Below, one piece after another: positions 10,643 through 38,899 of a DNA stretch of 64,000 nt (the first letter of the stretch is position 1; every line of letters begins with the position of its first letter). Origin of the DNA: Verrucomicrobiia bacterium. GTDB lineage: Bacteria > Verrucomicrobiota > Verrucomicrobiia > Limisphaerales > JADLHS01. Made by a program: the position numbers and the translations under genes. Location: contig JAHCLO010000010.1 of NCBI GenBank assembly GCA_026125285.1, positions 62,001-126,000 on the forward strand, given 5' to 3'. The notes beneath the pieces were generated by a model. That model saw nothing but the letters and a program-made list of their open reading frames with translations. It had not been told where the DNA came from and searched no databases.

Positions 10643-11275
10643 ATGTCCTTCACGGACCAGCACGCCGGGAAGATTCGCGCCACGGAAACCGATCGTGAAA
10701 ACGCGCCAAACAGGGCCGTAATGCGACCAGAAGCAGCCAGTGCCGAACCGCCCGGAGCGGAAACGATTCAGGAGCTGTTTGCAGCCCTTGAAACGCCCCT
10801 GCTCAATTACGCCGTGCGTCTGGCGGGCGCGCGCGAACTGGCCGAGGACCTCGTTCAGGAAGCATTCATGAAACTACACGCCCAGTTCGAGGAGGTGCGC
10901 GAGCCAAGACGCTGGCTTTATCGCACCGTCCATAACCTGGCCCTGAACCACCGGCGCGACTCGGCGAAGTTGGTCACCTTCGATCCCCTTCCGTCGCACG
11001 AGTCGCCTGAGTCCCATGCGACGGAGGCGACCGATGAGTCCCCTCTCCCCGATGAACAAATCGCCCGCCTGGAAGGCATCGGCCTGGTGCGGCTCAGTCT
11101 CGAAACGCTCGATGCACGCAGCCGTGAACTCATCCGGCTCAAGTTCAACGAAGACCTTTCCTACCAACAAATCGGCGAACGCACCGGCCTGAAGAGCGGC
11201 CACGTCGGCTATCTGCTGCATCACGCGCTCAAAGCCCTCGCCGCTGAACTCGCCAAAAGCGGAGTTATCCCATGA
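10643..11275 (+). CDS. ECF-type RNA polymerase sigma factor
   Basis: 210 residues. Region 2 is seen in LLNYAVRLAGARELAEDLVQEAFMKLH and PRRWLYRTVHNLALNHRRD; region 4 in LDARSRELIRLKFNEDLSYQQIGERTGLKSGHVGYLLHHALKALA. The first ~45 residues are a variable extension. The downstream vWA protein begins with a short cytoplasmic segment and one membrane helix, the layout of an anti-sigma factor, so the pair may form a sigma/anti-sigma module. This is inferred from position and topology. Confidence 0.88.
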   Translation: MSFTDQHAGKIRATETDRENAPNRAVMRPEAASAEPPGAETIQELFAALETPLLNYAVRLAGARELAEDLVQEAFMKLHAQFEEVREPRRWLYRTVHNLALNHRRDSAKLVTFDPLPSHESPESHATEATDESPLPDEQIARLEGIGLVRLSLETLDARSRELIRLKFNEDLSYQQIGERTGLKSGHVGYLLHHALKALAAELAKSGVIP

Positions 11276-11313
11276 ATGTATCTTTTCGCAATTGCCAGGC
11301 CGCCCGCGACGCC

Positions 11314-11447
11314 GTAGCGCAGGTTTCCAACCTGCTGTATCGCAGATTTTCAATCTGCGAACCGTTCGTTATCATGGCGCACCCAGACAAGTGGAACGCC
11401 TGGCCGAGTGCAACTCGGCGATACGGCAGAATTCAATTCTGCGCTAC
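11314..11447. repeat. REP/BIME element copy A (GTAG...CTAC)
   Basis: 134 bp, starting GTAGCGCAGG and ending CTGCGCTAC. It has four hairpins: AGGTTtccAACCT, CGCAGATTttcAATCTGCG, CCGAGTgcAACTCGG and CAGAATtcAATTCTG. Same architecture and length as copies C and D. It fills the sigma factor-vWA gene gap and is not coding. Confidence 0.85.
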
Positions 11448-11455
11448 GCCTGCGG

Positions 11456-11524
11456 AGCACGGACAGCCATGTCCGCGCGAATCCCAGCGGGCAATAGAAA
11501 CTCGCGGACAAAGCTGTCCGCGCT
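11456..11524. repeat. Second palindromic element (AGCACGGACAGCC...GCTGTCCGCGCT)
   Basis: The arms 11456-11477 and 11503-11524 are inverted repeats differing at three positions (core GGACAGC / GCTGTCC). It lies directly after REP copy A and 7 bp before the ATG of the vWA gene, so it occupies the ribosome-approach region of that gene. Confidence 0.75.
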
Positions 11525-11531
11525 CCTGCCC

Positions 11532-14500
11532 ATGAACCCGGACTCTCCCCAAACGCCACGCGAGGAACTCGAGGCGCGCCTGACCGCGCTGCTGCTGGGT
11601 GAATTGTCAGCCGAGGAAGCCGCCGCGTTGCGCGTCCAACTCGCACAAGACCCGGAACTCGCCGCTCTGCACAAACGGCTGAAACAAACCATCGGTCTCG
11701 TGCGCGAGGTCAGTGTCCGTCAGAGCGAGCCGGCAACTGCCCAAGCCGCGCCGCTCACACTTTCCGAGGAACGGCGTGAGCAGCTCTTGGCCGAGTTCAA
11801 AACCATCAAGGCGCAACCACTGCTCCCACCGCTCCCGCGCCGACAGAGGTGGCTTGTGCCCGTTGCCGCCGCCGCGATCCTCCTTCTCCTGGCGGCCATT
11901 ACGCTGCCCAATTTCATCCGTGCGCGGAACACTTCCGCCTCGAATGCCATGATGAACAACCTCCGGCAGATCGAAGCCGCCAAGCAACAGTGGGCTGTGG
12001 ACCATAACAAACTTGCCAATGCCGTGCCCACGATGGAGGATTTGAAGCCTTACATGAAAGGCGGTGAATTGCCCGCGTCAGTCGCCGGCGAAACATACGT
12101 TCTCGGCCCGGTGGGACTTCCGCCCACAGTCGAGTCCGCCAAGGCTACACCTCGGACTTGGTTTTTCGGGCGATCTGCCAGCACCCCGCAGCAGGTAACG
12201 AGGCTTGCCAAAGAATTGGATCCTGTGAGCAAGCGCCTGGATGAGGCGATCAGTTCTGCGATTCGACCTAAACCGGTTCCTCCACCGCAGCCTGAGCGTG
12301 CGCGGGGCGATCAGTTGTCGGAGCGATATGACAACACCGTGACATACCGCAATCAAATTGTCCTACCCACGCCGACCGAGCCTGAGGCTGAGGTGTCCGC
12401 GAGAGCGGTTCACGATGCTTCGGAATTCGGTCTCCAATTTCGGACTTGGGGGAGTGGCGGACGTCCCAGCAGCGTTGCCGAAGGCAGGAAAGCTGGCGCG
12501 GCGGTCGTGGCGCAGAGTGTGAGCGACCCGGAATGGGCGGGAGCGCTGGAGCGACCGGCATTGCCCCACTCCACTGACGATCGTTTCGTTACCCGTTACG
12601 ATCACACAGAGGACCGTGGCGCATCACCAACCACCGGCCTGCCCTTGCCGGCTGCCGGCATTTTGCCGGAGGTAGCCGCCGAAGGTAAGGCAGCGGCCGG
12701 GATTCCTTTGGCATTTGCTGACTCCGATAGTGAGCGGAGGTTGGGACTCTCTCCGAGTGTCGGCCGACCCGCCGCCGGAACGATGGCGGGTGAATTTCAA
12801 AATCGTTACGGACTACCCGCCGCTCCGGCGCAAGGAGTCGTGCGTGGCCGACTCGCGGAATCTGTTGAGAGCAAGGTTGCGCCATTGCCGGCCTTGGCAC
12901 CGCCCCCATCACCCCGGGAGATCACCGCAGGAATCGCCGGCGCCGCGCCTGCGGATCCAACGGTGGAGTCGGTATCAGCCCCACCTGGCTATGCGGCATT
13001 TGGTGAGTTGTCAGTGGGGCGCAAACCTGTGGCCAAACCGGAGGCCGACAAAGTGCCCGTGCTGGGCGATTTGCCCGCGGTGGGTGGTGCGCTTCAAATG
13101 GAGAGGCCAACTGCTGAAGCCCGGCCACGCGGCTTCTCCCTGCTTGGGCCGGTTGCTCCGGCGGCGCAGCCAGAACCGCAAGTGGCGGCAACAGAGCGGT
13201 ACGCCTTTGACACGCTCGGACGAACTGCCCCGCAGTCGCCCGCGACTGGTCGCGTTCCAGCGAGTTCGCCCCAACCAGTCCCGCGCGTCAACGTAGCCGG
13301 GGCTGCTTCCCTGCCAATCCCAGGTTCGCCGACTCCGCAGGTCATTTATTCCACTAACGTTGTAGGCTACACGGTGGTTCCATTGGAGTCTTCACCCGTG
13401 GCGCTTGAGGCCGCCAAGCAGCCGTTGGGCCGGAGTCAAAGCAGCATCGTGCTGCCACCAACCTCGGCCGGTGCAGGTGTAGTGAACGCAGGCGTGGCGA
13501 GAGCAGGCGATGCCCTTCAGGACGCCAGAATCTCAATGGAATTCGGCAGACCCGCTGACGCGGAAGTCAAGTTGCGGGAAGTCCTCCAGCGCGAACCCGA
13601 CAATCGCGCGGCAGGCTACTACCTGAACCTGGCCAGGGAGCAACAACTGGCCAATGCCAGAAAACTGGGCGAACACGAGTCGAAAAAGGGCGTTGTGCAA
13701 ACTGCGCTTCTGCGACAAGAGCTGGAAAGCCTTCGATTGGGTTTGGCGGTTTCAGAAACTGACGCTGCGGGGGCAACTCCAGCACCAATGCTCGAAACTG
13801 GCGCGTTGCGCAACATTGAGGCTGCCCGCGTCGAAAGCGCAGCCCGATACCTCAGAGAGCAGAAGCAACTTGACCAGTTAAGGGCCTACAACAAGGAACA
13901 GTTGATGGAAGCGCTTCCCCAAATTGTGCCCGGGGCCGGACTAAGTGAGCAACGAGTTCAACTTGGACGGGCTGAACAACGGTTGGTAGAAGTCGAAAAG
14001 GTTTACGGACAGGAACACCCCGAAGGCAAGCGTGCGAAGGCCCAGGTGGATGAACTGCGAAGGAGAACCGATGATCTCGCTGTCAGCGTGATGTCCAACC
14101 TGGAAAGTCAGGTTGCCATCGCAAAAGGCGAAGCCGATAGCTGGGCCAACGTGGTGGAAGAAGCCAAGGAATTGGATCGGGAAAAAGCAGACAAGTCCCG
14201 TGCCTATTTCGACAAGAAACGTGAGTTGGCGGAAGCCGAGCGTTTCCAGCAGTTGCTTGCCGAAAAGAACGCTTCAGAAGGAATTGACCAGACCCTGCCC
14301 AAAGACACTGGGGTTGTAATTGTGGACCGCGCGGAAGCCACACCTTCGGATGGCCAAGGGCTTTGGTCACGCCTTCGCCGTGGTTTAAGCCGTGAAAGCG
14401 ATGCCGTAGCGCGTATCAAAATTGAACCTGGCGCTTCCGAAATCTCGGGATTGAGTTTGAGTGCGAGGCAATCGCCGGACCAGCACGTGTACGATCCGTA

Positions 14501-16274
14501 TTTCATCCAGACTGAGTTTGAAGCCATTCAGTCCGAGGCGGTGCTCGGCAAAGTTGTAAACGGCCTGAAGCTGGACGAAGCCTGGGCGGAGAAACGCGGC
14601 GGTGAATCGTTGAAGACGGAAGAAGCCATCGCCATGCTCAAGCAGCAACTCGATCTGCGACCGGCACGCGACACCGGCGTGGTGGAAATCCGCGCGAAAA
14701 GCGACAAGCCCGAAGAGGCGGCCAGAATTGCCAATGCGGTGGCCGAGGCTTATCGCGATTACCGCTCCGCACAAGGGCGGGAGTTGGCAGCCAGAAACGT
14801 GAGTGCTCTCCAAGACCGGTTGGGCGAGCAGGAGCAGAGGATACTTCAGACCAAAGCGGAATTGGAACGCCTCGGGCGTCAAGCCAGCGTTGATGCGGAC
14901 ATCGCCCCCAGCCGCAAGCCTGCCACCAACGCTCCCATTCCTCAGCCAGAAATCCAGACGACCGAAAACGCCTTCTCCACCTTTTCGCTCAACGTCAGCG
15001 ATGTGGCGTTCAAGCTGGCGGCGGCCAGTCTGGAGCAGGGCCAGATGCCGGATGCGGCTTCCGTGCGCGCCGAGGAATTCATCAATGCCTTCGATTACCG
15101 CGATCCCGAACCGCCGCCGGGTGTGCCGGTTGCGTTCGCGTGGGAGCGGGCGCGGTATCCGTTCGCACACAATCGCGATCTGCTGCGCTTCTCACTTAAG
15201 ACCGGCGCGGCAGGGCGGCAGGCGGGGCGCCCGCTGAATCTTGTGCTGCTGCTCGACAATTCCGGCTCGATGGAACGCGCCGATCGGGTGCAGATCATCC
15301 GCGAAGCGTTGCGCGTGCTCGCCGGGCAGTTGCAGCCCCAGGACAAATTGAGTGTCATTACTTTCGCCCGCAGCGCGCGGTTGGTTGCGGACGGACGCTC
15401 CGGTGACCAAGCCGGCGAAGTGCTTGATCAAGTGAGCGGTCTCGCGCCGCAAGGCGGCACGAATCTCGAAGAGGCGATGAATCTCGCCTACGCGACGGCG
15501 TTGCGCCACTACCTCGCCCACGGTCTCAACCGCGTTGTGTTGCTCACCGACGGTGCGGCGAATCTGGGAAACGTCGAACCGGAATCGCTCAAGCACGCGG
15601 TCGAGACGCATCGCAAGCAAGGTGTGGCGCTGGATTGCTTCGGCATCGGCTGGGAAGGGTTCAACGACGACTTGCTGGAAGTGCTCTCACGCAACGGCGA
15701 TGGCCGTTATGGGTTTCTCAATTCGCCGGAAGATGCGGCCACGGACTTTGCCGGACAACTGGCGGGCGCGCTGCAAGTGGCTGCGTCAGACGTGAAGGTG
15801 CAGGTGGAGTTCAATCCAAGGCGCGTCACGGCGTATCGCCAGATCGGTTACGCGAAGCATCAACTCACCAAGGAGCAATTCCGCGACAACACGGTGGACG
15901 CCGCCGAGATTGCCGCGCAGGAAGCCGGCAACGCGCTTTACACCGTGGCGGTAAATCCCGCCGGCGAAGGGCCGCTTTGCATCGTGCGCTGCCGGTTCAA
16001 GATTCCCGGCACGACCGATTATCGCGAACACGAGTGGGCCGTGCCCTACACCGGGAACGCCGCAACGCTGGAGCAGGCCAGTCCCGCGATGCGCCTCGCC
16101 GCGAGTGCCAGCGCGTTTGCCGAGTGGCTGGTGGTGAGCCCGTTCGCCGCCGAAGTCACGCCGGATGCGCTGCTCGGGTACTTGAACGGCGTGCCGGAGG
16201 TCTATGGCGCCGACGCGCGACCGAAGAAACTGGAATGGATGATCCGTCAGGCGAAGAGCCTGGCCGGGCGTTGA
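11532..16274 (+). CDS. Giant membrane-anchored protein: anti-sigma/pilin-like N-terminus, Wzz-like segment, C-terminal vWA domain
   Basis: 1580 residues. (1) Residues 1-100: acidic helical cytoplasmic segment (LTALLLGELSAEEAAALRVQ). (2) One membrane helix ~103-125 continuing into LPNFIRARNTSASNAMMNNL and KQQWAVDH, strikingly like a pseudopilin stem without its cleavage site. (3) A long Pro/Ala-rich low-complexity part (~150-650) with a VIYSTNVVGYTVV motif. (4) A TPR-like and coiled-coil segment (~655-950). (5) A Wzz/chain-length-determinant-like segment (~985-1115: YFIQTEFEAIQSEAVLGKVV). (6) A YfbK-type vWA domain with MIDAS DNSGSM, GGTNL and LLTDGAANLG. Start ATG 11532; upstream in-frame codons would translate two repeats. 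Function unknown; likely envelope stress or surface role. Confidence 0.85.
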   Translation: MNPDSPQTPREELEARLTALLLGELSAEEAAALRVQLAQDPELAALHKRLKQTIGLVREVSVRQSEPATAQAAPLTLSEERREQLLAEFKTIKAQPLLPPLPRRQRWLVPVAAAAILLLLAAITLPNFIRARNTSASNAMMNNLRQIEAAKQQWAVDHNKLANAVPTMEDLKPYMKGGELPASVAGETYVLGPVGLPPTVESAKATPRTWFFGRSASTPQQVTRLAKELDPVSKRLDEAISSAIRPKPVPPPQPERARGDQLSERYDNTVTYRNQIVLPTPTEPEAEVSARAVHDASEFGLQFRTWGSGGRPSSVAEGRKAGAAVVAQSVSDPEWAGALERPALPHSTDDRFVTRYDHTEDRGASPTTGLPLPAAGILPEVAAEGKAAAGIPLAFADSDSERRLGLSPSVGRPAAGTMAGEFQNRYGLPAAPAQGVVRGRLAESVESKVAPLPALAPPPSPREITAGIAGAAPADPTVESVSAPPGYAAFGELSVGRKPVAKPEADKVPVLGDLPAVGGALQMERPTAEARPRGFSLLGPVAPAAQPEPQVAATERYAFDTLGRTAPQSPATGRVPASSPQPVPRVNVAGAASLPIPGSPTPQVIYSTNVVGYTVVPLESSPVALEAAKQPLGRSQSSIVLPPTSAGAGVVNAGVARAGDALQDARISMEFGRPADAEVKLREVLQREPDNRAAGYYLNLAREQQLANARKLGEHESKKGVVQTALLRQELESLRLGLAVSETDAAGATPAPMLETGALRNIEAARVESAARYLREQKQLDQLRAYNKEQLMEALPQIVPGAGLSEQRVQLGRAEQRLVEVEKVYGQEHPEGKRAKAQVDELRRRTDDLAVSVMSNLESQVAIAKGEADSWANVVEEAKELDREKADKSRAYFDKKRELAEAERFQQLLAEKNASEGIDQTLPKDTGVVIVDRAEATPSDGQGLWSRLRRGLSRESDAVARIKIEPGASEISGLSLSARQSPDQHVYDPYFIQTEFEAIQSEAVLGKVVNGLKLDEAWAEKRGGESLKTEEAIAMLKQQLDLRPARDTGVVEIRAKSDKPEEAARIANAVAEAYRDYRSAQGRELAARNVSALQDRLGEQEQRILQTKAELERLGRQASVDADIAPSRKPATNAPIPQPEIQTTENAFSTFSLNVSDVAFKLAAASLEQGQMPDAASVRAEEFINAFDYRDPEPPPGVPVAFAWERARYPFAHNRDLLRFSLKTGAAGRQAGRPLNLVLLLDNSGSMERADRVQIIREALRVLAGQLQPQDKLSVITFARSARLVADGRSGDQAGEVLDQVSGLAPQGGTNLEEAMNLAYATALRHYLAHGLNRVVLLTDGAANLGNVEPESLKHAVETHRKQGVALDCFGIGWEGFNDDLLEVLSRNGDGRYGFLNSPEDAATDFAGQLAGALQVAASDVKVQVEFNPRRVTAYRQIGYAKHQLTKEQFRDNTVDAAEIAAQEAGNALYTVAVNPAGEGPLCIVRCRFKIPGTTDYREHEWAVPYTGNAATLEQASPAMRLAASASAFAEWLVVSPFAAEVTPDALLGYLNGVPEVYGADARPKKLEWMIRQAKSLAGR

Positions 16275-16280
16275 TATGCA

Positions 16281-16310
16281 ATTCCGAAATCCGAAATCCG
16301 AAATCCGAAA
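16281..16310. repeat. Tandem ATCCGAAA octamers
   Basis: Four tandem copies of ATCCGAAA (the first with a small variation) right after the vWA stop codon. Related copies appear in frame in hypF (positions 5-27) and in the 2396-residue gene (~22344-22370, read as NPNPKSENSQ). Confidence 0.75.
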
Positions 16311-16373
16311 AGCAATCGAAGTCCGAAGCCAAGCCGATCACGGTGGCGTGGCGGTCAGAAATCGTAGCGCAGA

Positions 16374-16497
16374 GTTGCACTCTGCCGTATCGCAGATTTG
16401 TAATCTGCGTCCGGTGGTAGAGATCGAGAGCGTTGGAATAATCCCGCGTCCTGCCGAGTGCAACTCGGCGGTACGGCAGATTGAAAATCTGCGCTAC
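16374..16497. repeat. REP/BIME element copy B, overlapping the RAYT stop codon
   Basis: 124 bp, starting GTAGCGCAGAG and ending TCTGCGCTAC. Four hairpins as in the other copies (GCAGAgttgcacTCTGC, CGCAGATTtgtAATCTGCG, CCGAGTgcAACTCGG, GCAGATTgaaAATCTGC). The terminal GTAG on the minus strand supplies the TAG stop of the neighbouring transposase gene. Confidence 0.9.
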
Positions 16498-17240
16498 GGA
16501 GCCGCCGCCGCTGCCGCTCGACCCCGCCCCGCGCTGCTCCACGGCCAATCTTCCGGCGCGACGCACAAGCGCGCCTTCACCGGATTGTTCTCCACGTAGC
16601 GACAACACCGCGCATGTTCCTCATCGTTGCGAATCCAGTGATCGTAAGCCTCCGGCTGCCAGAAACCCTGGCCGGTGCGGCCGAGAATGCGGTTGGCTTC
16701 GCGCGCGATGTGACGCTTCAGACTTTGCGCGATTTTGCTCAACGTGTGATTGGGCATCGGCCAGAGCACAAGGTGAACGTGGTTGGGCATCACCACCCAG
16801 ACATCGAGCCGGTACCGCTGTCCATTGAAGAAACGCAAAGCGTCCGCCACAACGGCAGCCAGTTCCGGCTGCTTCAACGAACATTCGCCCGCGCCCTTGT
16901 CCAGATACGCCTCCAGTTTGCGAAAGTAATCGCGCTCGATGTCCTCCACTGTTTCCACCCGGGCCCGCGCGCCGGTTCGGTTTGCGCCCGTCGCTGCGGC
17001 GTGGAAGCGATGCAGCCGTTCCGCGCGTTCGGCCTGGTATTTCAGCAACGCCTCCTTGGGCAACGAATCGGCCAGCCGGAAAGTGACGAAGTAACGCGCA
17101 CCCTCGCGTTTGACGTGCGGCAGGTAGCCGCGCGTGTGAATGCCGGAACGCAGAGGATTCGCGGCTTCCGGCTTCACACCCGTCGCGCGGAGTTCATGCG
17201 CAACGCGTTCGATGCGGGGGTTCTTCTCTTCCGGAAACAT
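16494..17240 (-). CDS. REP-associated tyrosine transposase (RAYT, Y1 family)
   Basis: 248 residues. RAYTs are single-domain HUH nucleases, related to IS200/IS605 transposases, that act on REP hairpins. The HUH motif is in VVMPNHVHLVLWP; the helix with the catalytic Tyr is near DHWIRNDEEHARCCRYVENN, followed by the conserved NPVKA and PWSSAG tail. The N-terminus has a RYFVTFRLADSLP strand typical of this branch. REP elements lie on both sides (copy B at its 3' end, copies C and D upstream), and its stop codon is inside copy B, fitting a RAYT with its own substrate. No flanking transposon ends or target duplications are seen, so it is probably domesticated. Confidence 0.9.
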   Translation of the reverse strand: MFPEEKNPRIERVAHELRATGVKPEAANPLRSGIHTRGYLPHVKREGARYFVTFRLADSLPKEALLKYQAERAERLHRFHAAATGANRTGARARVETVEDIERDYFRKLEAYLDKGAGECSLKQPELAAVVADALRFFNGQRYRLDVWVVMPNHVHLVLWPMPNHTLSKIAQSLKRHIAREANRILGRTGQGFWQPEAYDHWIRNDEEHARCCRYVENNPVKARLCVAPEDWPWSSAGRGRAAAAAAP

Positions 17241-17298
17241 GGTTCGACAGTAGGGCTAACCTGGCGCTGTGCGCAACACTTGCGTTCGGCTTTGGGCG

Positions 17299-17432
17299 GT
17301 AGCGCAGATTTGCACTCTGCTGTATCGCAGATTTGCAATCTGCGTCCGTCACGAGGATTTGAGAGCACTGCAAGGACCGGACGGCTTGCCGAATACAATT
17401 CGGCGATACAGCAGATTGAAAATCTGCGCTAC
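17299..17432. repeat. REP/BIME element copy C
   Basis: 134 bp from GTAGCGCAGAT to TCTGCGCTAC, with the standard four hairpins. It is nearly identical to copy D, which follows after 25 bp in the same orientation. Lies upstream of the RAYT gene in the 17241-17692 gap; the gap holds nothing else recognisable beyond copies C and D. Confidence 0.92.
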
Positions 17433-17457
17433 AAACGCCGCCGCACGCGGGCGAACG

Positions 17458-17591
17458 GTAGCGCAGAGTTGCACTCTGCTGTATCGCAGATTTGCAATCT
17501 GCGTCCGTCACGAAGATTTGAGAGCGCTGTAAGGACCGGACGGCTTGCCGAATGCAATTCGGCGATACAGCAGATTGAAAATCTGCGCTAC
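17458..17591. repeat. REP/BIME element copy D (tandem with C)
   Basis: 134 bp, differing from copy C at only a handful of positions, including the inner segment (caCGAAGATTTGAGAGCGC versus caCGAGGATTTGAGAGCAC). The near identity of the two complete units suggests recent duplication. About 100 bp separate it from the start of the 2396-residue gene. Confidence 0.92.
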
Positions 17592-17692
17592 GACCAAGAT
17601 CCGCGCTACGAGCCGAGCGCCGCGCCATTGCATCAGGCCAGCCCCAGCTTTCCAAGCGCCTCCCACCCATCCACCCACAAATCATCCGCCCT

Positions 17693-20600
17693 ATGAACAC
17701 CTCATTCGCACGTTTTTCCTGCTGTTTGTTGTTTTTGCTACAAGCCGTCGCAGCCGATGCCCCCGCCGCCACCCAGGCCGAGGTCAAGAACCTCTCCCTC
17801 ACCGGCGGCTTGGATGACGGCAGGGCAAAGCTCATTATTGAAGCGGATCTCCAAGGCCTGGACGCCGCCCGCGCCAAACCCATTTATGCCACCGCGCTGC
17901 AACACTCGCTCCGCGCGACCCTCGAAAAGTTCAGCCACTCCTTGCTCCTCAAGATTGACGTCATCCAAGGCGAGCCGAAGGAAATTGCGCTGGTCTTGTC
18001 CGGCGAAGGCGAACTTCGCTCCGTGACAGGCGATCGGTTGCTGGATTGGAGCCTCCGTGAAGAAGCCGGTGGCAGTCGCTTTCTGGTGCTCCGGCCCCAA
18101 CCCGGCGCGACACCGCTCACCAACTGGCTGATCACCGTCACGGCGGAAACCGAGTTCAAAGACCTTCCCCACACCGTCACACCGCTCACTCTGGCCTCGC
18201 CTTTGCCGGGCTTGTTTCAGGGTTTCGTGCGGGTGGATGCCGACGCGGCATTGCTGGTCTCCGTGCCGGCGCCGGTCGGCGCCGTCCCGGTCGAGTGGAA
18301 GTATCTGCCGGAATCCATGCGCCAGGCTCCGGTCACGACCGGAGCCGAGCCTCTGGCGTTCCGAATTCACGACGCCAGCTACGCCCTGCCCATGACGCTT
18401 TCGCTGGCGGACCCGGAATTGCGCCGGGTGGTCCTCCATAACACCCGGCTTGCCGGACGGCTTGGTGATGAGTCCGCCGCCTTCACGTTCACCGCCACTG
18501 CGAGGGTAAAGAATCCGCAAGGTGGCTCGCTGCCACTGCTGTCCGGCGGAGTCGCCCTCACCGACCTGGAGGCTCATCCCGGTTGGCGCATGAAACTCGA
18601 GGATGGCCGATTCGTTCTGGTGTGCGACCAGCCCGGTGAATTTCCCCTCAAGCTTCAGTTCCACGCCACGGTGCGTCAGGCGGAAGGGTGGAACTCGGTG
18701 AACTTTCAGGTTGCACCCAGCGCCCTCCAACCCATCGTCCTGCAAGGGTTGGCGGCGGACACGCAGTTTCAATTCGCCAACGCCGCGCGACCCGAACGTG
18801 CGGGCAGCGATTTTCTCAGTCACCTGCCCGCCGACGGCGCGGTGAAGCTGGCGTGGAAGGAAACGCGGAAAGAGCAGGAGGGCCGGTTGTTCTACGCGGC
18901 GGAAATGCTTTCCCAAATCACCGTCAGCCCCGGCCTCATGCGCCAGGTCGCGTTGCTGGAGGGCAAGGTGATGCAGGGCGAGATGAACCGCGTGACGCTG
19001 TTGTTGCGGGGAGCAGGCGAGGTCACGCGCGTTCTCGGCGATCAAGTTCTCGCCTGGACAGTCGAACCGGGAGAGTCGGAACGATTCCCTGGCGAACGCC
19101 GGCTCGTGATCCAGTTCAATCAACCGCAAAAGGACCAGTTCACCTTGCAGGTGCAAACGCAAACGCCACTGGGCGCGTTTCCGCAATCCGCCGACCCGCT
19201 GCAACTCCGCCCGGAAGGTGCGACCCGCTTTGCCGGTTATTTCCGCATTGTCAACGACGGCGCCGTGCGGCTTGAAGTGGTTCAGGCCGGCGGGCTTTCG
19301 CAGATTTCGCCCGAGCAGTTTCCCGAAACCGATGCGACCAAGGCGGCGTTGCGCGTGACCGGCGGCCAGCGTTTTGCCTATCGCTTCTCCGGCGCGGAGT
19401 TCGCGTTGCGGATTCAAGCCGACCAAATCCTGCCCGAACTGGCGGTTTCGCAAGTGCTCGCGTATCACCTCGGCGAAAACGAACTGGCGATTGACGCCGA
19501 ACTCGAACTGGACATCCGCGAAGCGCCGTTGCGCGAGTTGCTGCTGCGCGTGCCCAAGGGCTTTGCCCTCGCGCGACTCAGCGCTTCCGGGATGAGTGAT
19601 TATTTCCTGCGCGACCCGGCGGATGAAGCCGAGGCGGAACTGCGCATCGTTTACGGTCAACCGGTGGCGGCCCGCCAGGTGGTGCAGTTGCGCCTCGAAC
19701 GCAACAAACCGCTCGGCGAAACGAACTGGGCTTTGCCCAAACTCGAAGTCAGCAAGGCGAAATCCACCCGCGGCCACGTGGGCGTGTCGGCGGATGCAGG
19801 CTTCCGCCTGACGCCGGAACGGACGCAGGCGTTGACGGAAATCGCCACGGCGTTCTTCCCACGCAAGGTGGCGGGGATTCAATCGGCGTTCCGCCTGAGC
19901 GAACCCGCGTGGCAGGCGACGATGCGCGTCGAGCGTTTGCCACAAACGGTGCAGGCGGATGCGTTCCATCTTTTCTCCATCGGCGAAGGCATCGCGTATG
20001 GCAGCAGCGTGCTGAACTTTCACATCTCCGGCGCGCCGGTGTCGGCGTTTCGCATCGAGTTGTCCGAGGAATACTTCAACGTCGAGTTCACCGGCAAGGA
20101 CGTCCGCAATTGGGAGAAGACGACCAATGGATTCCTCGTGAAACTGCACACGCCGGTGGCGGGCGCCTACACGTTGCTGGCGACCTACGAACGGCCGTTC
20201 AAGGCGCAGGGCGACACGCTCGCGTTCACGGGTGCGCGTCCACTCGATGCGCAATCAGAGCAGGGTCACACGCTCGTCATCAGCGCCTACCAGTTCCGCG
20301 TGGAGCCGGTGGATGTTTCGAGCGGATTGCTGGCATTGGAAACCGGCGAAGTGCCGCCCGAGTATCGCTTGTTCTTCGACGCACCCATTCTGAAGGCGTA
20401 TCGTTACACGGCCCGCCCGTTCAACTTGCGGCTCGCCCTCAGCCCGCTCGCCCAGGGTGAAACCCTGAGCCAGGTGGTGGATCGCGCATTGCTCACCACG
20501 CGCATCTCGAAAGCCGGCCAGGTGGTGACGGACGTGCGTTACTTTGTGAAGAACCGCGGGAATTCACACTTCCGGCTGGCGTTGCCGGCGGGTGTGCAAC

Positions 20601-23600
20601 TCTGGTCGGCACAGGTGAACGGGGCCGCAGTCGTGCCAGTGACCGACCTGCGGACGAATCTGATTCCGCTGCCGCAACAAACCGATCCGAACGCGGTGCT
20701 GACGCTCGATTTGAAACTGGCCGCCACTTCTTCCGTACCGTCACGCGTGAGTGTGGCCGCACCGATGCCAGGCGCGCCGGTGATGCTGGCGGAGTGGAAG
20801 CTCGAACCGGACGCGGGCCGGCGGTTGGTCTTCCGCAAAGGCTCGCTCACTCCGGTGCAGGGCGGTGCGGACGTTTCTGGATTCGCCCAGTTTGCCCGCA
20901 CGTTCAGGGGCGCTCAGGGCGACGTGGCATCGCTCTCGGTGCTGGCGGTGCTGGTGCTCGTGGGAGTGGCTGGTGCGCTCTGGCGCTTGGCCGGCGGTGA
21001 AGGTGTTTACCGGTTTAGCGCGCGACATTGGGTTTGCATGGTGGTCGGCACGGTTGCGTTCCTCGTCGCCCTGCTGCTCCTCGTGAGTTTCGGCGACCTG
21101 CTTCGGGAACAGGCGCGTTCATTGCCAGGTGACATCACCATCCTGGCGCCCGTCCAGCAATCCAACAGCGCCCTGGCGGTGGAAGTGGCGAATGTGACCC
21201 ACGAGGTGTCGTTCTGGGACAACCTTGGATATGGATGGCCGGCCCTGCTGGCCCTGCTGGTCTGGGTTTATGGTTGGGTAAGGCCGGAACGGGAGACTAA
21301 GCTGGCTGCTGCGTTGTTGGGCTGGCTGTTGCTGGCGTGGACCACGCTCCGCTGGCCGAACGGAGCCGTTCTGTTCCTATGGGTGATGGTGACTTTCCTG
21401 CTGCTGCACGTTGTGCTTCCGTTGCTGCGACGCCTGGGGCAACTCCCGCGCAAACCGCAGTCCGGTCCGCCCACGGTTTCACCGGGCGGCATGGCTTCGG
21501 CAGCGGCGGCGTTCCTGGTCATGGCAACGCTGCAACCTGGTAGCGCCGAATTACATTCTGCGGTGTCGCAGATTTCCGATCAGCCCGTCCTCCAACTGGC
21601 ACAAGCCACTCCACCCAGCGAGGCTTCCGCAGTTCGCACTGCCAGCCGTTTGAAAATCGGCGATCCAGCAGATTCCAAATCTGCGCTACGCCGCGATGAG
21701 CCTCCGCTGGCTGCGGCGGTCACGCAACAGATTCGCGTCGAAGATCAATTCGCGCTGGCCACAACCAGGCTTCGCTGGCAGGCCACCCAGGGCCAACTGT
21801 TGCCGGTACTCTTTCCCCCGGCGGTGCTGACCCGCATCGCCTATCCCACCAACTCACTCAAGCTGGTGCAGGCGCCCGTTGGCGACCGAACCGCCCGACA
21901 ACTACTCGCACTGGAGAGCGGCGTCTTCGAGGTGGAAGCGCAGTATCAATTGCAGTTCACCCGACGCGAGGGCGAGAGTGGATTCATTCTGCCCACGCAA
22001 GCCGGTCTGGTTAACCGGCTCACTCTCACGTTGGTGAACCTGGACGTGGACGTGCGTTCACCGGCGGCCGTGTCGGTGCAACGAGACCTGGCCGACGGCA
22101 ACACCGTCGCGACCCTGGTGCTCGCGCCGACGCACGACGCCTGGATCGGCTGGCAGCCGCGCAGCCGCGATGTGAAACGGGAGAAGCCGGTGTTTTACGC
22201 GGAATGGACGCAACTCTACGTGCCCGCGGCGGGTGTGATTGAAGGGGTGCATCAGGCGGCAATCCGCCCCGCCCAAGGCGAACTGGGGGAGTTGCTTTTC
22301 AATGTGCCGCGCGGAGCGACCATTACGGACGTGAGCGATGCAAACCCAAACCCCAAATCCGAAAACTCCCAACCAGGTTCCATGGTCTCGCTCTGGCGGT
22401 TCGATCCGGACACACGGAAACTGCGGGTCACGTTGAATCCGTCGCAATCGCGTCCGTTTATGCTGATCATCCGCTCGCAGGTTGCCACGGGCACCTTGCC
22501 ATTCGAACAGTCGGTGGGCCTCGTGTCGGTGGAGAGCGCCGCCAGCCAGATCGGGTTGCTGGGCGTGGCCACGGGCAACGAAGTGCAACTCGATACGGTG
22601 GACGCCGCGGCGCTTTCGCCCATCAACCTTGAGGATTTTCCGGGCCCGGTGGCGCAATCGCTCGCGGCCCAGATTCCCGGACTCACAGTGCGCCGCGCGT
22701 TTCGTTATGCCGACCCGCAAACGACGGCTTTGGTGAAAGCTTCGCCGGTCGAACCCGACGTGCGCGTCGAGTCACAGGACACTCTGTCTTTGGGCGAAGA
22801 CCGGTTGGTGCTGGCCGCCAACCTCGTGGCGGACATCACCCGGGCGGGGGTCTTCCGGCTCAGTTTTGAACTGCCACCAGGATTGGAAGTGGAATCCATC
22901 AGCGGCGCGGCGTTGAGTCATTGGACCGAGTTGAAGACGGACACCGAACGGATCATCACGCTGCATTTGAAAGGCAAGACCGAGGGACGGCAACAATTCG
23001 CCGTCAGCCTCACCGGACCGGGCGTGAAGTCGGCGGGCGATTGGACAGTGCCGCGGCTGGTTCTGCGCGAAGCCAACAAACTCACGGGCACGTTGGTGGT
23101 CGTGCCGGAGCAAGGCTTGTTGGCGCAGGTGGCCGTTAGCGAGGGACTGACGCAACTGGACCCGCAGAAATCGGGCATCCGGCAGAAGGGCGTGCTGGCT
23201 TTTCGCGTTCTGCAAAACACCTGGCAACTGGCGCTCAAGCTGGAGCAGGTCGAACCGTGGATTCAGGTGACGAGTCTGCAACACGCGACGGTGAGCGAGG
23301 CGCAGGTGAAGGTGGCCGCCAATCTGCAATATCAAATCGAGAATACAGGGCTGAAGGCCTTTCGCGTCTGGTTGCCCGAGAATGCCGGGAGCGTGCGGTT
23401 TCAGGGGGATCAAGTGGCCGATTCCCTCGCCACGCCCGGCGCCATTACCAATGGATTGCAGGAGTGGGAGGTCAAACTGCATCGCCGGGTGATTGGCCGA
23501 TACTTCCTGCAAGTGTTTTGGCAGACCCCCGTCGCGGCGGACGCACCCCAGACCGTGCTGCGCGGGGTGCGGGCGGCGGACGTGAATTTGCAGCGCGGAT

Positions 23601-24883
23601 TTGTCACCGTGCAGGCTGCCGGCCGTTTGCAGGTGCGCCTGGAGACACTGCCCGAGGCGCTGCAAGCCACCGAGTGGCAGAGCATTCCGCGCGCGTTGCA
23701 GCAGGACCTCCCGGCCGCCACCGCCAACTTTGCCTGGCGGCTCATCGAACCGGACTTTCAACTGGCGCTGGCGCTCGATCGCCATGAAGCGGCCCGATTG
23801 CTCCCGGCGCGGGTGAACAGTGTGACGCTGAATTCCGTGGTTTCCGACGCCGGGGTGATGCTCACCCACGTCCGGTTGGAAATGCTGCCGGGAGACAAAC
23901 GCCTCCTGCAACTCACGCTGCCGCCGGGCGCGGAATTCTGGTTCGCCTTTGTGAACCAGAACGGCGCCTGGCCCTGGCGCGAACAGGATCGGATTCTCAT
24001 TCCGTTGGAGCAGGAATCGCGCAGCGGCAAGACCGTGCCGGTGGAATTGTTTTACAGCCGTCAGGCTGGGTCGCCGGGCACGCGGTCACTCGATCTCAAT
24101 TTGCTGGCGCCGAAGTTCGATCTGCCCCTCGAGAACGTGACGTGGCACATCCATCTGAACGAGAAGTGGCAGGTCGGGCGGCACACGGGCACGCTGGAAT
24201 TTCAAGCGACCCAATCCGTCGCCCGCGGCGCAACCCTGGACGTGCAGACTTACTTGCAGAACGAGGTGACCCTCCAACGCGAAAAGACCCGGACAGCCGA
24301 GGAGATGCTGGCCGTGGCCAACACGGCCCTCGAACGCGGTGATCCGCAACAGGCACGCCGCGCCTTCCAAGCGGCCTTTGGCCTGAGCCAGCACGATCTC
24401 GCCTTCAACGAGGACGCCCGCGTGCAGTTGAACAACCTCAAACTTCAACAAGCCCTGGTCGGATTCAACGTGCGGCAGGCGGCCGTGGCGGGGGAGGAGG
24501 GGGGCGTGGCCGGACGATTGCGCGAACTGCGCGGCCGCAAGGATGCGAATTACACGCAACGCGACGCGAAGGAAATCATTGACCGCAACACGGCGGAGGA
24601 GAACGCGGCGTTCATGCGTCTGGCCGAAAAACTGATTCAACAACAGGACGCGGCCGTGAGCAGTCCCGCCGTCATTCGGGCGAACATTCCCGAACAGGGT
24701 CAGGTGCTGACCTTCAAACGCGCGGTGGTGGTGGACCGCGAGGCCGACCTGCGGATCGCGCTCGAAGCCAGCGTCATGCGGGTGGTATCGTGGAAAGCAA
24801 AACTGTGCCTCCTGCTTGGCGCGGCCTTGCTCATGGCGGGGCTGCGCTGGCTGGCACGCGGCGCCAAACGCCCGGCCGGCTAA
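17693..24883 (+). CDS. Very large (2396-residue) membrane protein of unknown function with internal duplication
   Basis: N-terminal signal peptide (FSCCLLFLLQAVAADAP), a long periplasmic beta-rich region (30-1070), a cluster of about six membrane helices (~1080-1282: VLAVLVLVGVAGAL, VVGTVAFLVALLLLV, WPALLALLVWVYGW, ALLGWLLLAW, LWVMVTFLLLHVVL, AAAAFLVMATL), a second beta-rich region (1335-2250), a helical tail and a final helix (CLLLGAALLMAGLRWL). The periplasmic parts look related: FRLALPAGVQLWSAQVNGAAVVPV in the first half parallels LQLTLPPGAEFWFAFVNQNG in the second. REP copy E is translated in frame between them. I do not recognise the family. Beta-sandwich repeats flanking a helix bundle suggest an envelope assembly or sensing protein, but that is a guess. 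Confidence 0.85.
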   Translation: MNTSFARFSCCLLFLLQAVAADAPAATQAEVKNLSLTGGLDDGRAKLIIEADLQGLDAARAKPIYATALQHSLRATLEKFSHSLLLKIDVIQGEPKEIALVLSGEGELRSVTGDRLLDWSLREEAGGSRFLVLRPQPGATPLTNWLITVTAETEFKDLPHTVTPLTLASPLPGLFQGFVRVDADAALLVSVPAPVGAVPVEWKYLPESMRQAPVTTGAEPLAFRIHDASYALPMTLSLADPELRRVVLHNTRLAGRLGDESAAFTFTATARVKNPQGGSLPLLSGGVALTDLEAHPGWRMKLEDGRFVLVCDQPGEFPLKLQFHATVRQAEGWNSVNFQVAPSALQPIVLQGLAADTQFQFANAARPERAGSDFLSHLPADGAVKLAWKETRKEQEGRLFYAAEMLSQITVSPGLMRQVALLEGKVMQGEMNRVTLLLRGAGEVTRVLGDQVLAWTVEPGESERFPGERRLVIQFNQPQKDQFTLQVQTQTPLGAFPQSADPLQLRPEGATRFAGYFRIVNDGAVRLEVVQAGGLSQISPEQFPETDATKAALRVTGGQRFAYRFSGAEFALRIQADQILPELAVSQVLAYHLGENELAIDAELELDIREAPLRELLLRVPKGFALARLSASGMSDYFLRDPADEAEAELRIVYGQPVAARQVVQLRLERNKPLGETNWALPKLEVSKAKSTRGHVGVSADAGFRLTPERTQALTEIATAFFPRKVAGIQSAFRLSEPAWQATMRVERLPQTVQADAFHLFSIGEGIAYGSSVLNFHISGAPVSAFRIELSEEYFNVEFTGKDVRNWEKTTNGFLVKLHTPVAGAYTLLATYERPFKAQGDTLAFTGARPLDAQSEQGHTLVISAYQFRVEPVDVSSGLLALETGEVPPEYRLFFDAPILKAYRYTARPFNLRLALSPLAQGETLSQVVDRALLTTRISKAGQVVTDVRYFVKNRGNSHFRLALPAGVQLWSAQVNGAAVVPVTDLRTNLIPLPQQTDPNAVLTLDLKLAATSSVPSRVSVAAPMPGAPVMLAEWKLEPDAGRRLVFRKGSLTPVQGGADVSGFAQFARTFRGAQGDVASLSVLAVLVLVGVAGALWRLAGGEGVYRFSARHWVCMVVGTVAFLVALLLLVSFGDLLREQARSLPGDITILAPVQQSNSALAVEVANVTHEVSFWDNLGYGWPALLALLVWVYGWVRPERETKLAAALLGWLLLAWTTLRWPNGAVLFLWVMVTFLLLHVVLPLLRRLGQLPRKPQSGPPTVSPGGMASAAAAFLVMATLQPGSAELHSAVSQISDQPVLQLAQATPPSEASAVRTASRLKIGDPADSKSALRRDEPPLAAAVTQQIRVEDQFALATTRLRWQATQGQLLPVLFPPAVLTRIAYPTNSLKLVQAPVGDRTARQLLALESGVFEVEAQYQLQFTRREGESGFILPTQAGLVNRLTLTLVNLDVDVRSPAAVSVQRDLADGNTVATLVLAPTHDAWIGWQPRSRDVKREKPVFYAEWTQLYVPAAGVIEGVHQAAIRPAQGELGELLFNVPRGATITDVSDANPNPKSENSQPGSMVSLWRFDPDTRKLRVTLNPSQSRPFMLIIRSQVATGTLPFEQSVGLVSVESAASQIGLLGVATGNEVQLDTVDAAALSPINLEDFPGPVAQSLAAQIPGLTVRRAFRYADPQTTALVKASPVEPDVRVESQDTLSLGEDRLVLAANLVADITRAGVFRLSFELPPGLEVESISGAALSHWTELKTDTERIITLHLKGKTEGRQQFAVSLTGPGVKSAGDWTVPRLVLREANKLTGTLVVVPEQGLLAQVAVSEGLTQLDPQKSGIRQKGVLAFRVLQNTWQLALKLEQVEPWIQVTSLQHATVSEAQVKVAANLQYQIENTGLKAFRVWLPENAGSVRFQGDQVADSLATPGAITNGLQEWEVKLHRRVIGRYFLQVFWQTPVAADAPQTVLRGVRAADVNLQRGFVTVQAAGRLQVRLETLPEALQATEWQSIPRALQQDLPAATANFAWRLIEPDFQLALALDRHEAARLLPARVNSVTLNSVVSDAGVMLTHVRLEMLPGDKRLLQLTLPPGAEFWFAFVNQNGAWPWREQDRILIPLEQESRSGKTVPVELFYSRQAGSPGTRSLDLNLLAPKFDLPLENVTWHIHLNEKWQVGRHTGTLEFQATQSVARGATLDVQTYLQNEVTLQREKTRTAEEMLAVANTALERGDPQQARRAFQAAFGLSQHDLAFNEDARVQLNNLKLQQALVGFNVRQAAVAGEEGGVAGRLRELRGRKDANYTQRDAKEIIDRNTAEENAAFMRLAEKLIQQQDAAVSSPAVIRANIPEQGQVLTFKRAVVVDREADLRIALEASVMRVVSWKAKLCLLLGAALLMAGLRWLARGAKRPAG
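21540..21689. repeat. REP/BIME element copy E, inside a coding sequence
   Basis: About 150 bp, starting GTAGCGCCGAATTAC and ending CAAATCTGCGCTAC, diverged from copies A-D but with matching outer arms and CGCAGATTTCCGAT-type inner hairpin. It is read in frame as residues ~1283-1332 (GSAELHSAVSQIS...DSKSALR), right after the last membrane helix of the cluster. Confidence 0.8.
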
Positions 24884-34700: not shown

Positions 34701-35221
34701 AGCCCGACACCCTCCTCCGCTGCCGTACCGCCCTGCGCTGGTTGCTCGGCGGATTGATGCTCTGGGCGGCCGTGTCCAAGCTGGCCGCGCCGACGGAATT
34801 CCTCGGCGCGATTTACTCCTACCAACTGCCGCTGCCGCAAGCGTGGCTGCAAGCCGCGGCCGTGGTGCTGCCGTGGTTGGAACTGCTTTGCGGACTCGCT
34901 TTGATGGCCGACAAATGGACGGAATCGGCCCTGACGCTCGTGCTGGGCTTGTGCGTGGTTTTTGTGCTGGCCACGGGTCAGGCCTGGCTGCGCGGGCTGG
35001 ACATCTCCTGCGGTTGCCTGGACTTCAGAATTCTTGGGGTGGTCAAACCAGCCGGCAATGCCATGAGTTTCTTCGAGTCCGCCGCCTTTGCTTTCTTCCG
35101 GGCCCTCCTGCTCGTGGCGATGACCGGATGGCTGCTGCGCCACCGACTTTCCGAAGTGACCACGCCGGATAGGACCCAAGCCGCAACTGAAACTGTTTCA
35201 ATCCGCGCCCCGCTCACGTGA
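34697..35221 (+). CDS. MauE/DoxX-like four-helix membrane protein
   Basis: 174 residues with about four membrane helices (WLLGGLMLWAAVSKLAA; WLQAAAVVLPWLELLCGLAL; ALTLVLGLCVVFVLATGQAW; FFRALLLVAMTGWLL) and an SCGCL motif near residue 115, typical of MauE/DoxX proteins linked to thiol redox. Overlaps the rhodanese gene by 4 nt. The last eight residues (VSIRAPLT plus the stop) are encoded by the first 27 bases of the outermost CRISPR repeat, so the native 3' end may have been replaced when the array formed or moved. Confidence 0.8.
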   Translation: MKPDTLLRCRTALRWLLGGLMLWAAVSKLAAPTEFLGAIYSYQLPLPQAWLQAAAVVLPWLELLCGLALMADKWTESALTLVLGLCVVFVLATGQAWLRGLDISCGCLDFRILGVVKPAGNAMSFFESAAFAFFRALLLVAMTGWLLRHRLSEVTTPDRTQAATETVSIRAPLT

Positions 35222-35447
35222 GCGGGGCGACGCGTCGGCCGGGTCTTTGGTGTCCACGCAAAGGCCGTTTCAATCCGCGCCCCGCTCACGTGAGCGGGGC
35301 GACGCGGCCACGGATTGACCGATCTCGCGAAGGATGAACGTTTCAATCCGCGCCCCGCTCACGTGAGCGGGGCGACCACTGTCTCACGCCCGAATCTGAG
35401 CGGACCGCAGGTTTCAATCCGCGCCCCGCTCACGTGAGCGGGGCGAC
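35195..35447 (-). CRISPR. Type I-C-like CRISPR array, 4 repeats and 3 spacers
   Basis: Four identical 37-bp repeats at 35195-35231, 35267-35303, 35340-35376 and 35411-35447, with spacers of 35, 36 and 34 bp. On the minus strand the repeat starts GT, then a perfect 24-bp palindrome (half-site CGCCCCGCTCAC), then CGGATTGAAAC, the I-C type 3' end. The 11 bases after the stem equal the usual 11-nt Cas5c-generated 5' handle. This orientation puts cas2 and the leader on the right, so new spacers should enter at 35447. Identity of all repeats, even the distal one, suggests a young or recently contracted array. Confidence 0.97.
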
Positions 35448-35634
35448 TGCGGCCCTGCCTTCCGACTGAGCCGCAACGACTTTGTAGCCCATTTGCGCGA
35501 ACCTGCCAGTTTTTCCTGCCCGCCAATGGTTTGGATTGTCAATGAACGAGAGAAAATGTGCGCCCGCATTGCCTTCGGGCCACAGCGCGAAGTCATGCGT
35601 GCCCGTCCGGCACTGGAGGTTCGCGGAGAACGGT
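35448..35634 (-). other. Leader-position region with an open, start-less reading frame
   Basis: The 187 bp between cas2 and the array should be the leader. It is not AT-rich. One minus-strand frame is open for about 65 codons without a start, reading for example THDFALWPEGNAGAHFLSF then IDNPNHWRAGKTGRFAQMGY, and continues into the first repeat. This looks like ordinary protein sequence, so it may be a gene relic. I do not recognise the family. If so, the functional leader may be missing or lie elsewhere. Confidence 0.4.
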
Positions 35635-35925: not shown

Positions 35926-35961
35926 GGCGTTTATTGCTATTGGAGATTTGAGATTCCAAAT

Positions 35962-37054
35962 TCACTTGGGGACGAACGGAAGGTAGTCCGCCAAATCCCC
36001 GCGCAGGTAGCGCGCCAACACGCGCGCTTGCACGAATGGTAATTGCGCGACGCGGAATTCCTGCTCGAGGAGCGGGTGCGTGAGCCGTTCCTGCTTGCGT
36101 TCCTGATACGCCTTGATGACGCGCTTGCGTCCCGCATCGGTAAACTCGACCGCGCCACCCTCGCGCAACTTGAAATCGTCCGGGCCAATTTGCTGCCGGT
36201 TGATCAAAGTGACGGCCAGGCGGTCAGCCAGCCAGGGGCGAAACTCCTCCATCATGTCCAGCGCCAATGCGGGACGATTCGGGCGCTCGGCATGGAGATA
36301 ACCGACAAACGGGTCCAAGCCGATGCTCGTCAGCGCGGCAATGCAATCGTGCCGGACCAAAGCGTAAAGGAAACTGAGCAGACAGTTGATGCGGTCGCGG
36401 GGCGGGCGGCGGCTCCGCGTGGTGAAGCTGAAATCGTCACGCTGCTGTTTGAGCAAGAGGGCAAACACCCCAAAGTAGGTGGCGCCACCCATGCCTTCCG
36501 CACCGCGCAGTTCATCAATCTGAGATGTACGGTCTGAGATTTCAAATTCCGCCAGCCGGCGGATTTGCCGGGCGAGCGCGTCGGTGGCTTCGCCGATTTG
36601 AGCTTTCAGATTCGCGCGCGCCGCGCAAGAGACTGTTGCGGCTGTTCTGGAGTTTGCCCGCGATGATCTGCCGGGTGATGGCGGCGCACTTGGCCGGGTC
36701 GTCGGCCGCGCGGAACTGGGCGCGGCGCAGGGTCACGCTGGTGTCGGCTACCCCCGTCAGGCGCGCTTGCAGGTAACCGGACTCACTCAGAAAATTCACC
36801 GCCACGCCGTTCTCCCAGCACAAATCCAGCGCCGGCGGACTGATAGTGCTTGGCCCGAAAACACAGATGGATTCGAGATGATGGATGGGGATGCTCAGGG
36901 ATTTGAAATTTGAAATTTCAGACTTCAGATCTTCCGCGGTCGCGGGCGAGCCGTCGGGCCGCAGCGGCACCTTGACCTGCAAGGTCAGGTGGTCGCGCGC
37001 AACGTATGTGCCCGGCGTGGTCAGGTAGAGAGTGTTTTGGGCAATATCGGGCAT
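35962..37054 (-). pseudogene. cas1: Cas1 integrase, full length but frameshifted
   Basis: Two frames together give a whole type I-C Cas1. The first (37054 to ~36620) starts MPDIAQNTLYLTTPGTYVAR and runs to IAGKLQNSRNSLLRGAR; the second (~36625 to 35962) goes on as ANLKAQIGEATDALARQIRR, IDELRGAEGMGGATYFGVFA and ends LRGDLADYLPFVPK. Metal ligands are present: Glu in LRGAEG, His in GYLHAERP and the acidic ALDMMEEF. The shift lies in a GC-dinucleotide run (36613-36626), as expected from loss of one GC unit or a sequencing or assembly error. The gene also holds in-frame copies of the dispersed repeat (DLKSEISNFKS, FEISDRTSQI). If the shift is real, acquisition is probably lost. Confidence 0.9.
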
Positions 37055-37069
37055 CAGGGATTTGAAATT

Positions 37070-37351
37070 TCAGATTTGAGATTTGAGATTGTCACCCGGC
37101 AGGTTCGGCGCGCAAAACAGCTTCGCAAACAACTCCTCCGCCCGGCGCACGCCTTCCTCCGTGAGCACGACCGATTTGGCCTTGCCCACCGGGTCGCTGA
37201 TGTAGCCCTGGGCATGCAGGCGAGCCAAGGCGTCCCAATCGTGACCCTTCCAGGCGCGAGTGACTTTGAAAGGTGGGCGGCCCTCGGTGAAGCTGGTCAG
37301 ATGCAGGAGCGCCAGCACCGCATCATCAATCTTGTCGAGATCGGGTTTCAT
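37070..37351 (-). CDS. DUF6429 family protein inside the cas operon
   Basis: 93 residues: DKIDDAVLALLHLT, ARAWKG-like segment TRAWKGHDWDALARLHAQGY and SDPVGKAKSVVLTEEGVRRA match the small winged-helix-like DUF6429 family, of unknown function. It is on the cas strand, between cas1 and the four-helix-bundle gene, 15 bp before cas1. The last residues (DNLKSQI) are encoded by the dispersed repeat, so the C-terminus is probably altered. It could be a passenger or a DNA-binding accessory; nothing here decides. Confidence 0.75.
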   Translation of the reverse strand: MKPDLDKIDDAVLALLHLTSFTEGRPPFKVTRAWKGHDWDALARLHAQGYISDPVGKAKSVVLTEEGVRRAEELFAKLFCAPNLPGDNLKSQI

Positions 37352-37400
37352 GGCTCGTGGGAACTTCGAATCTCACGTTTCAGATTTCAGATCACCGATT

Positions 37401-37928
37401 TCAGATGAGGCCCTTTTCCTCGGCCTCCTTGCGTTTGGGATGCCAGGCGGGCAGATGGCGGAGCAACGTCACGTTCAACGCCGCTGCCCGTTTCTTCCTG
37501 TCGTCCTCCGCGCGCGACTTGTCGGTCAAATGCCGCTGGCCCTGGATATCGGAGTTTTGCAGCGAGTCCGCCCAGCCGCGCAACTGGCGGGAGCACGACT
37601 CAGCCACAGATTTGAGATTTGAGATTTCTGATTTCAGATTGGCCGGCCACCGCGATTTCTCGGCCCGGCGCAATTTCAATGTGAGCAGCGAGCGCACTTC
37701 GCCGGCCGAGCCGCGCGCGATGTAGATGAACGCCAGCAGTTCGTTCGTGGTGCCACGCTCGAAGCCCTCGGCGATGTTGTTGGAAACGGAGAGGCTGGCG
37801 CGGTCCAGTTGGTCGCGGAAGCCGCGCGTGGCCTGGAACGCCTCGTTGTCCAGCAGGTCTTCGGTCAATTCATACAGTTCGGCGGCCTTCTGCCACACGG
37901 GCAGGTCTTCAAACGATTTGTAGGTCAT
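37401..37928 (-). CDS. Four-helix bundle protein (S23/IVP/bAvd-like) inside the cas operon
   Basis: 175 residues. The first ~90 (SFEDLPVWQKAAELYELTED, FRDQLDRASLSVSNNIAEGF, ELLAFIYIARGSAGEVRSLL) are a classic four-helix bundle protein of the 23S rRNA intervening-sequence/Avd family. The family is normally ~120 residues; here a repeat-derived NLKSEISNLKS lies in frame and a basic tail follows (DKSRAEDDRKKRAAALNVTL). The family is known from rRNA IVSs and, as Avd, from diversity-generating retroelements; no reverse transcriptase is in this window. It separates cas4 from cas1 on the same strand. Confidence 0.85.
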   Translation of the reverse strand: MTYKSFEDLPVWQKAAELYELTEDLLDNEAFQATRGFRDQLDRASLSVSNNIAEGFERGTTNELLAFIYIARGSAGEVRSLLTLKLRRAEKSRWPANLKSEISNLKSVAESCSRQLRGWADSLQNSDIQGQRHLTDKSRAEDDRKKRAAALNVTLLRHLPAWHPKRKEAEEKGLI

Positions 37929-38874: not shown

Positions 38875-38899
38875 GTCCCGGTCGTGACAGCCCCACGTA

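Follow-up and report, generated by a model that had tools for sequence, protein, structure and literature searches.

The window analysed here, 64,000 nucleotides from the 7.16-Mb genome of a Verrucomicrobiia bacterium (genome G000), contains on its minus strand, at 16494–17240, a gene for a protein of 248 amino acids. The protein scored 94.3 bits against the NCBIfam model NF047646 (REP_Tyr_transpos; cut-off 80) and 30.7 against Pfam Y1_Tnp (cut-off 23), and an alignment showed that the HUH motif NHVH (N153, H154 and H156) and Y215 are invariant across 17 aligned relatives. TnpA-REP of Escherichia coli (4er8) was the nearest solved structure by sequence (E 8.8e-10) and also the best fold match of the predicted model (E 2.4e-8; mean pLDDT 75.4). 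These results bear out the original prediction of a RAYT (REP-associated Y1 tyrosine transposase) gene at this position; the reading frame is intact and the catalytic residues are present. The window RAYT has the HUH and tyrosine core in common with TnpA-REP, but its N-terminal part is longer and of low confidence (pLDDT under 50 for residues 1–43). Named records among its relatives include Limisphaerales and Verrucomicrobia subdivision 3, which suggest Verrucomicrobiota.

Three elements lie within 360 bp of the RAYT reading frame, one downstream at 16364–16497 and two upstream at 17299–17432 and 17458–17591, the upstream copies forming a tandem with a 159-bp period. Three flanking elements of 124–134 bp had been predicted, in a region starting at 16374; the number was right, but each element is exactly 134 bp long and the first begins ten bases earlier, at 16364. 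As predicted, each starts with GTAGCGC, ends with GCGCTAC and carries four hairpins, and the tandem copies are nearly identical (96%). The hairpins are 17 nt long with 7-bp stems and 3-nt loops, one stem of the 17299–17432 element having a mismatch. The downstream element is 78% identical to the 17299 element, and has outer heads GTAGC, inner heads GTATC and GTACC, and a 44-nt spacer. The REP of E. coli TnpA-REP also has GTAG at its hairpin foot; here, by comparison, the target stems are of 7 bp, perfectly paired and closed by 3-nt loops. A fourth intact 134-bp copy (11314–11447; 68% identity) lies 5 kb off with no RAYT adjoining, and a degenerate 150-bp copy (21540–21689) sits in frame within a 2396-amino-acid reading frame (17693–24883), five homologues of which have no element sequence at that place. 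DNA folding of the four window copies gave z-scores of -5.7 to -9.0, more structure than expected by chance. Other short repeats were also seen in the window: a run AAATCCGAAATCCG (16280–16310) just before the first element, similar to the GATTTGARATTTGARATTTC-type runs with 7-bp units scattered over 35931–39814, and four 40-bp repeats (GTTTCAATCCGCGCCCCGCTCACGTGAGCGGGGCGAC...) at 35195–35450 which, with their spacing of 71–73 bp, look like a short CRISPR array.

The stop codon of the RAYT gene (TAG, 16494–16496, minus strand) lies within the GTAG head of the element downstream, confirming that the element supplies the stop. The stop is likewise the TAG of a GTAG directly before a hairpin in eight of 19 close RAYTs, compared to none of 25 other RAYT loci; four more of the 19 end in GTAG without an intact hairpin, and one of the 25 ends in GTAG. 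A higher first count was dropped, since L036 and L049 have an earlier stop. The portion of PMC2817692 used here already describes REPs that directly follow rayt stop codons, and that of PMC3733652 marks overlaps of REPs with RAYT 3′ ends.

The genome-wide search proposed along with the original prediction showed that the element is dispersed. The hairpin pattern without mismatch gave 58 and 54 hits in the genome and a reversed-pattern control gave none on either count; reading the window and 35 stretches chosen because they contained hits gave 29 complete copies and, listed beside them, 12 lone halves. Each half consists of two 17-nt hairpins, the outer one headed by GTAGC and the inner one, after a single base, by GTATC; the halves are mirror images with the spacer between them. 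Short palindromes that bear GTAG at one foot and are scattered over the genome in many copies identify the repeat as a GTAG REP, and the arrangement of inverted REPs around a spacer of fixed length (42–45 nt in 26 of the 29 complete copies) is that of a REPIN. When 45 copies with such spacers were pooled from four genomes (27, 10, 5 and 3 copies), GTAGC was the outer head of 82 of the 90 halves; GTATC was the inner head of 72 and GTAGC that of one, showing that the inner hairpins are not GTAG-headed. The median identity between halves was 87% in G000 and 92% in a second genome, G001, compared to 47% and 37%, respectively, for the spacers. A C just outside GTAG was found in 34/51 and 36/54 non-redundant flanks, and no other flank base was strongly conserved. 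As the flanks are nearly unconserved beyond the exact ends of the element, the unit is discrete and lies at many unrelated sites. A search for direct repeats at the element's own edges gave 77 rows, 11 of which scored at least 8 (compared to 4.9% of unpaired flanks), and no listed repeat abutted both edges.

The structure was examined in an alignment of 26 of the 29 complete G000 copies, from which L097, L105 and the copy at window position 21540 were excluded. Pairing within the four local hairpins was 97.9%, and in 94 cells both sides had changed, compared to 30.2 in shuffles. Long-range pairing between left and right halves was 81.2% compared to 84.8% in shuffles (all 500 shuffles reached the observed value), and two left–right column pairs never paired in the 26 copies. 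For three of the four window copies, the DNA fold of lowest predicted energy has the outer parts of the two halves paired with each other. Exactly one inner stem begins with GCCG in all 45 pooled copies, which gives the element a polarity; this rule is broken by two further copies in genome G063 (L166 and L170) and by most pairs in G013. By eye, the two inner stems differ in 15/15 paired elements of G013 and 8/8 of G028, even where both begin with GCCG. We read the pattern as upkeep of the local hairpins together with avoidance of one long hairpin: if all four local hairpins must be kept, the halves would be kept unlike, and a single long 45-bp hairpin would be disfavoured. Shared descent of the copies partly accounts for the covariation and for the left–right rule. 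Many REP families prefer unlike dimers, for which protection from long-hairpin removal has been suggested (PMC3733652, in the portion used).

GTAG REPs in Verrucomicrobia are not new, and a RAYT paired with its repeats is selfish DNA of a familiar type. Di Nocera et al. (2013; PMC3733652) reported pairs of GTAG REPs and RAYTs in Verrucomicrobia (Opitutus terrae) and in other phyla, and the REPtrons described there resemble the present locus in their GTAG-tagged stem-loops beside RAYT genes, in the overlap of REPs with RAYT 3′ ends, in REPs inside genes and in the preference for dimers of unlike stems. The sections of that paper drawn on here describe dimers, however, whereas the unit found here has four hairpins in a fixed arrangement, with GTAG outside, GTAT inside and a 43-nt spacer; those sections also mention GTAG units joined to unrelated stem-loops in Pseudomonas only, and no MITE coats with duplications. 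The REPINs of Pseudomonas fluorescens SBW25, as described in part of Bertels and Rainey (2011; PMC3116915), are similar in that an inverted REP doublet with a RAYT nearby is the mobile unit and that conserved ends enclose a variable spacer of fixed length. They differ in having one REP per side, with the sides pairing into a long hairpin; in the present element there are two hairpins on each side, and left–right pairing seems to be disfavoured. Set against these sources, what is new is the polar double-REP architecture, an abundance that does not simply follow the RAYT, and the presence of the core inside several MITE-like coats.

The relation between the RAYT and the element was followed across 96 genomes (its own and those of relatives) searched with the window RAYT. 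A half-element with up to four mismatches within 600 bp of the gene was taken as proximity, and the same half-element pattern was used to count abundance, since the first loop base of the hairpin pattern is too strict for some relatives. At the top ten loci ranked by score (55–100% identity to the window RAYT, which is included), the double-hairpin unit was found near eight, L034 and L041 having no recognisable doublet nearby, compared to one of 36 other RAYTs: one of nine next relatives (with four mismatches), none of 16 other RAYT-family loci in G000 and none of 11 further loci. The ten closest RAYTs form one side of a branch in the tree (support 92, not starred), on which the doublet label requires two changes compared to 7.4 when shuffled. 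Half-elements occurred in all ten genomes with such a RAYT and in 31 of the 86 others. In G002, five of seven half-elements flank the RAYT; G017 has both RAYT and element, and G075, of the same genus, has neither a match to the window RAYT nor the element. This association of one RAYT clade with one double-hairpin unit upholds the prediction that the elements are likely RAYT substrates.

Around the RAYTs of the next relatives, the hairpins also have GTAG heads but differ in sequence, and often there is a single one on each side; at least one such hairpin was seen at seven of the nine loci. These data support the view that the GTAG head persists while the stem sequences change. A second GTAG repeat type (GTAGCAGCNGACGTGAGTCNGC) occurs in the window as an inverted pair at 41636–41704; it flanks a different RAYT subfamily in G000 (L015, L016 and L018) and was absent from 75,819 control bases. 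At L016 and L018, neighbouring RAYT genes are surrounded by several copies of GTAGCAGCNGACGTGAGTCNGC-type repeats. In other phyla, after the seven closest of 80 rows were dropped, GTAG heads were found on 42 of 306 hairpins near RAYTs compared to 17 of 392 far from them (p 8.7e-6); higher ratios were given by GTGA (10 to 1) and by TAGC (45 to 8; this tetramer overlaps GTAGC), and two GTAG hairpins were lacking at 62 of 73 loci. The proposal that the GTAG rule extends to this distant phylum was right, and the association is also seen near RAYTs of other phyla, but its novelty did not hold, as the paper of 2013 had already reported it. Translated in frame, the RAYT flanks at L043 and L046 yield VGQVSDLP...GLQRRPQPAGQRP peptides, which probably represent a further family of translated repeats.

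Given a dispersed element, conserved hairpins, clade-specific flanking of the RAYT, a GTAG head in distant relatives and a second RAYT subfamily of the genome with a GTAG repeat of its own, it is highly probable that the locus is a REPtron, in which a RAYT is kept beside copies of the repeat on which it acts and would move the element in trans. When a strand is exposed, for example at the replication fork, the RAYT would bind to each half at the outer hairpin by way of the GTAG head, and the catalytic tyrosine of the enzyme would cut at or near the element ends. The unit of 133–134 bp would then be copied or moved in trans as single-stranded DNA, with no target duplication. The inner, GTAT-headed hairpins may constitute a second module with a fixed place.

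Element abundance does not simply follow the RAYT. Equal abundance in relatives lacking this RAYT had been named as evidence against the pairing, and this was partly what was found: G029 has 84 half-elements and no RAYT match (in an assembly 89% complete and of 390 contigs), G063 has 398 with a best RAYT only 53% identical and flanked by single-hairpin REPs, and G013, counted among the genomes without this RAYT, has 51. Abundance is, however, a poor test of the pairing, because MITE-type spread of the core probably explains much of the number in G063. Some copies lie between short inverted repeats, and a few are flanked by direct repeats of 8–14 bp. In G000, eight composites (group 1) have a common 24-bp inverted repeat (GTAATGCC...), outside which three of the eight have an exact 8-bp duplication; over all eight, 37 of 64 positions matched, compared to a shuffled mean of 19.7, and 51 of 20,000 shuffles reached this value. 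A second coat, of GGCGCATCTCCGAATGAGGAC type, is common to G000 and G063, and 13-bp direct repeats with one mismatch were found with it at L089 and L093. G063 has at least five coats (alpha, beta, gamma, delta and epsilon): 17 of 42 distinct elements have alpha on both sides and others have beta, gamma, delta or epsilon, with mixed pairs at L278 (alpha–gamma) and L117 (alpha–beta). The alpha arm gave 222 hits in G063 and none in the control, and all 23 paired alpha arms that were read, in stretches chosen for element or arm hits, enclosed the core. Sixteen alpha spans are 212 bp long and two (L295 and L296) are 189 bp, exactly one 23-bp hairpin unit being gone; the hairpin left in L296 is a hybrid, made of the left arm of one hairpin and the right arm of the one that follows. 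Several unrelated inverted-repeat coats hold one REP core here. A literature search covering open-licence PMC papers found no matching report of a REP within a MITE.

Empty forms of the group-1 coat were sought in G000: among 16 arm hits there was no intact coat-only copy, and of four arm sites without a known core that were fetched, one (L125) turned out to hold a whole composite. A gene for an IS110-family transposase (Pfam DEDD_Tnp_IS110) starts near a group-1 arm at L142 (263–1549, minus strand) and at L122. It was considered as the parent of the coat and rejected, because the arm there runs into a broken-off GTAGCGC head. Some insertion sequences are reported to insert into REP hairpins, and this gene may have done so.

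Since many copies lie inside larger inverted repeats, other transposases probably account for part of the spread of the element, and MITE-like coats are the likely reason for its abundance without the RAYT. A stronger version of this, in which the element is for the most part carried along by DDE-type MITEs and moved by the coat transposases, with the RAYT acting rarely or having made the first copies only, has appreciable weight but falls short of an even chance. It is favoured by the 133-bp core inside several unrelated coats in G000 and G063, by the duplications of group 1 and the repeats at L089 and L093, and by the enclosure of the core by every paired alpha arm that was read. It is opposed by the lack of a recognised coat on the window copies, on the G001 elements as printed and on about eight of the 42 G063 elements, by the alpha coat (28-bp repeats), which showed no duplication of 2–12 bp in 13 G063 copies, and by the doublet following the RAYT clade; moreover, no autonomous transposon encoding the coats was found. 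We give roughly equal odds for and against a combined reading, in which several unrelated MITE families of this order have taken up a polar REP unit with four hairpins that is linked to a RAYT; the unit would be spread by both the single-strand HUH transposase and the coat transposases, and could swap coats by recombination between shared hairpins.

Movement may also have ceased. That the RAYT–element cassette is a decayed or domesticated remnant is less likely than not: the search turned up no empty site whose flanks match closely, and RAYTs are single-copy and not self-mobile according to the portion of PMC3116915 used, but the reading frame is intact with its catalytic residues and the tandem copies are 96% identical. 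It is very improbable that the elements act as structures at the transcript level (terminators or mRNA-stabilising hairpins) under host selection with the RAYT nearby by chance, for, although strong compensating local hairpins would suit RNA as well as single-stranded DNA, the elements cluster at RAYTs in a clade-specific manner, keep a GTAG head that is unpaired in the local hairpins, and have no Rfam family match within window positions 11000–18000.

With the REPtron as the preferred reading, the locus offers a comparative case of a RAYT co-inherited with the architecture of its substrate, in which GTAG stays constant and the stems change, and which includes two RAYT–repeat pairs within one genome. 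The unlike halves bear on the remark in PMC3733652, in the portion consulted, that there is no obvious explanation of why unlike dimers are preferred. If both kinds of transposase do spread the element, the REP load of such a genome would not be tied to the RAYT, and if unrelated MITE coats carry a REP core, REP counts could no longer be read as RAYT activity.
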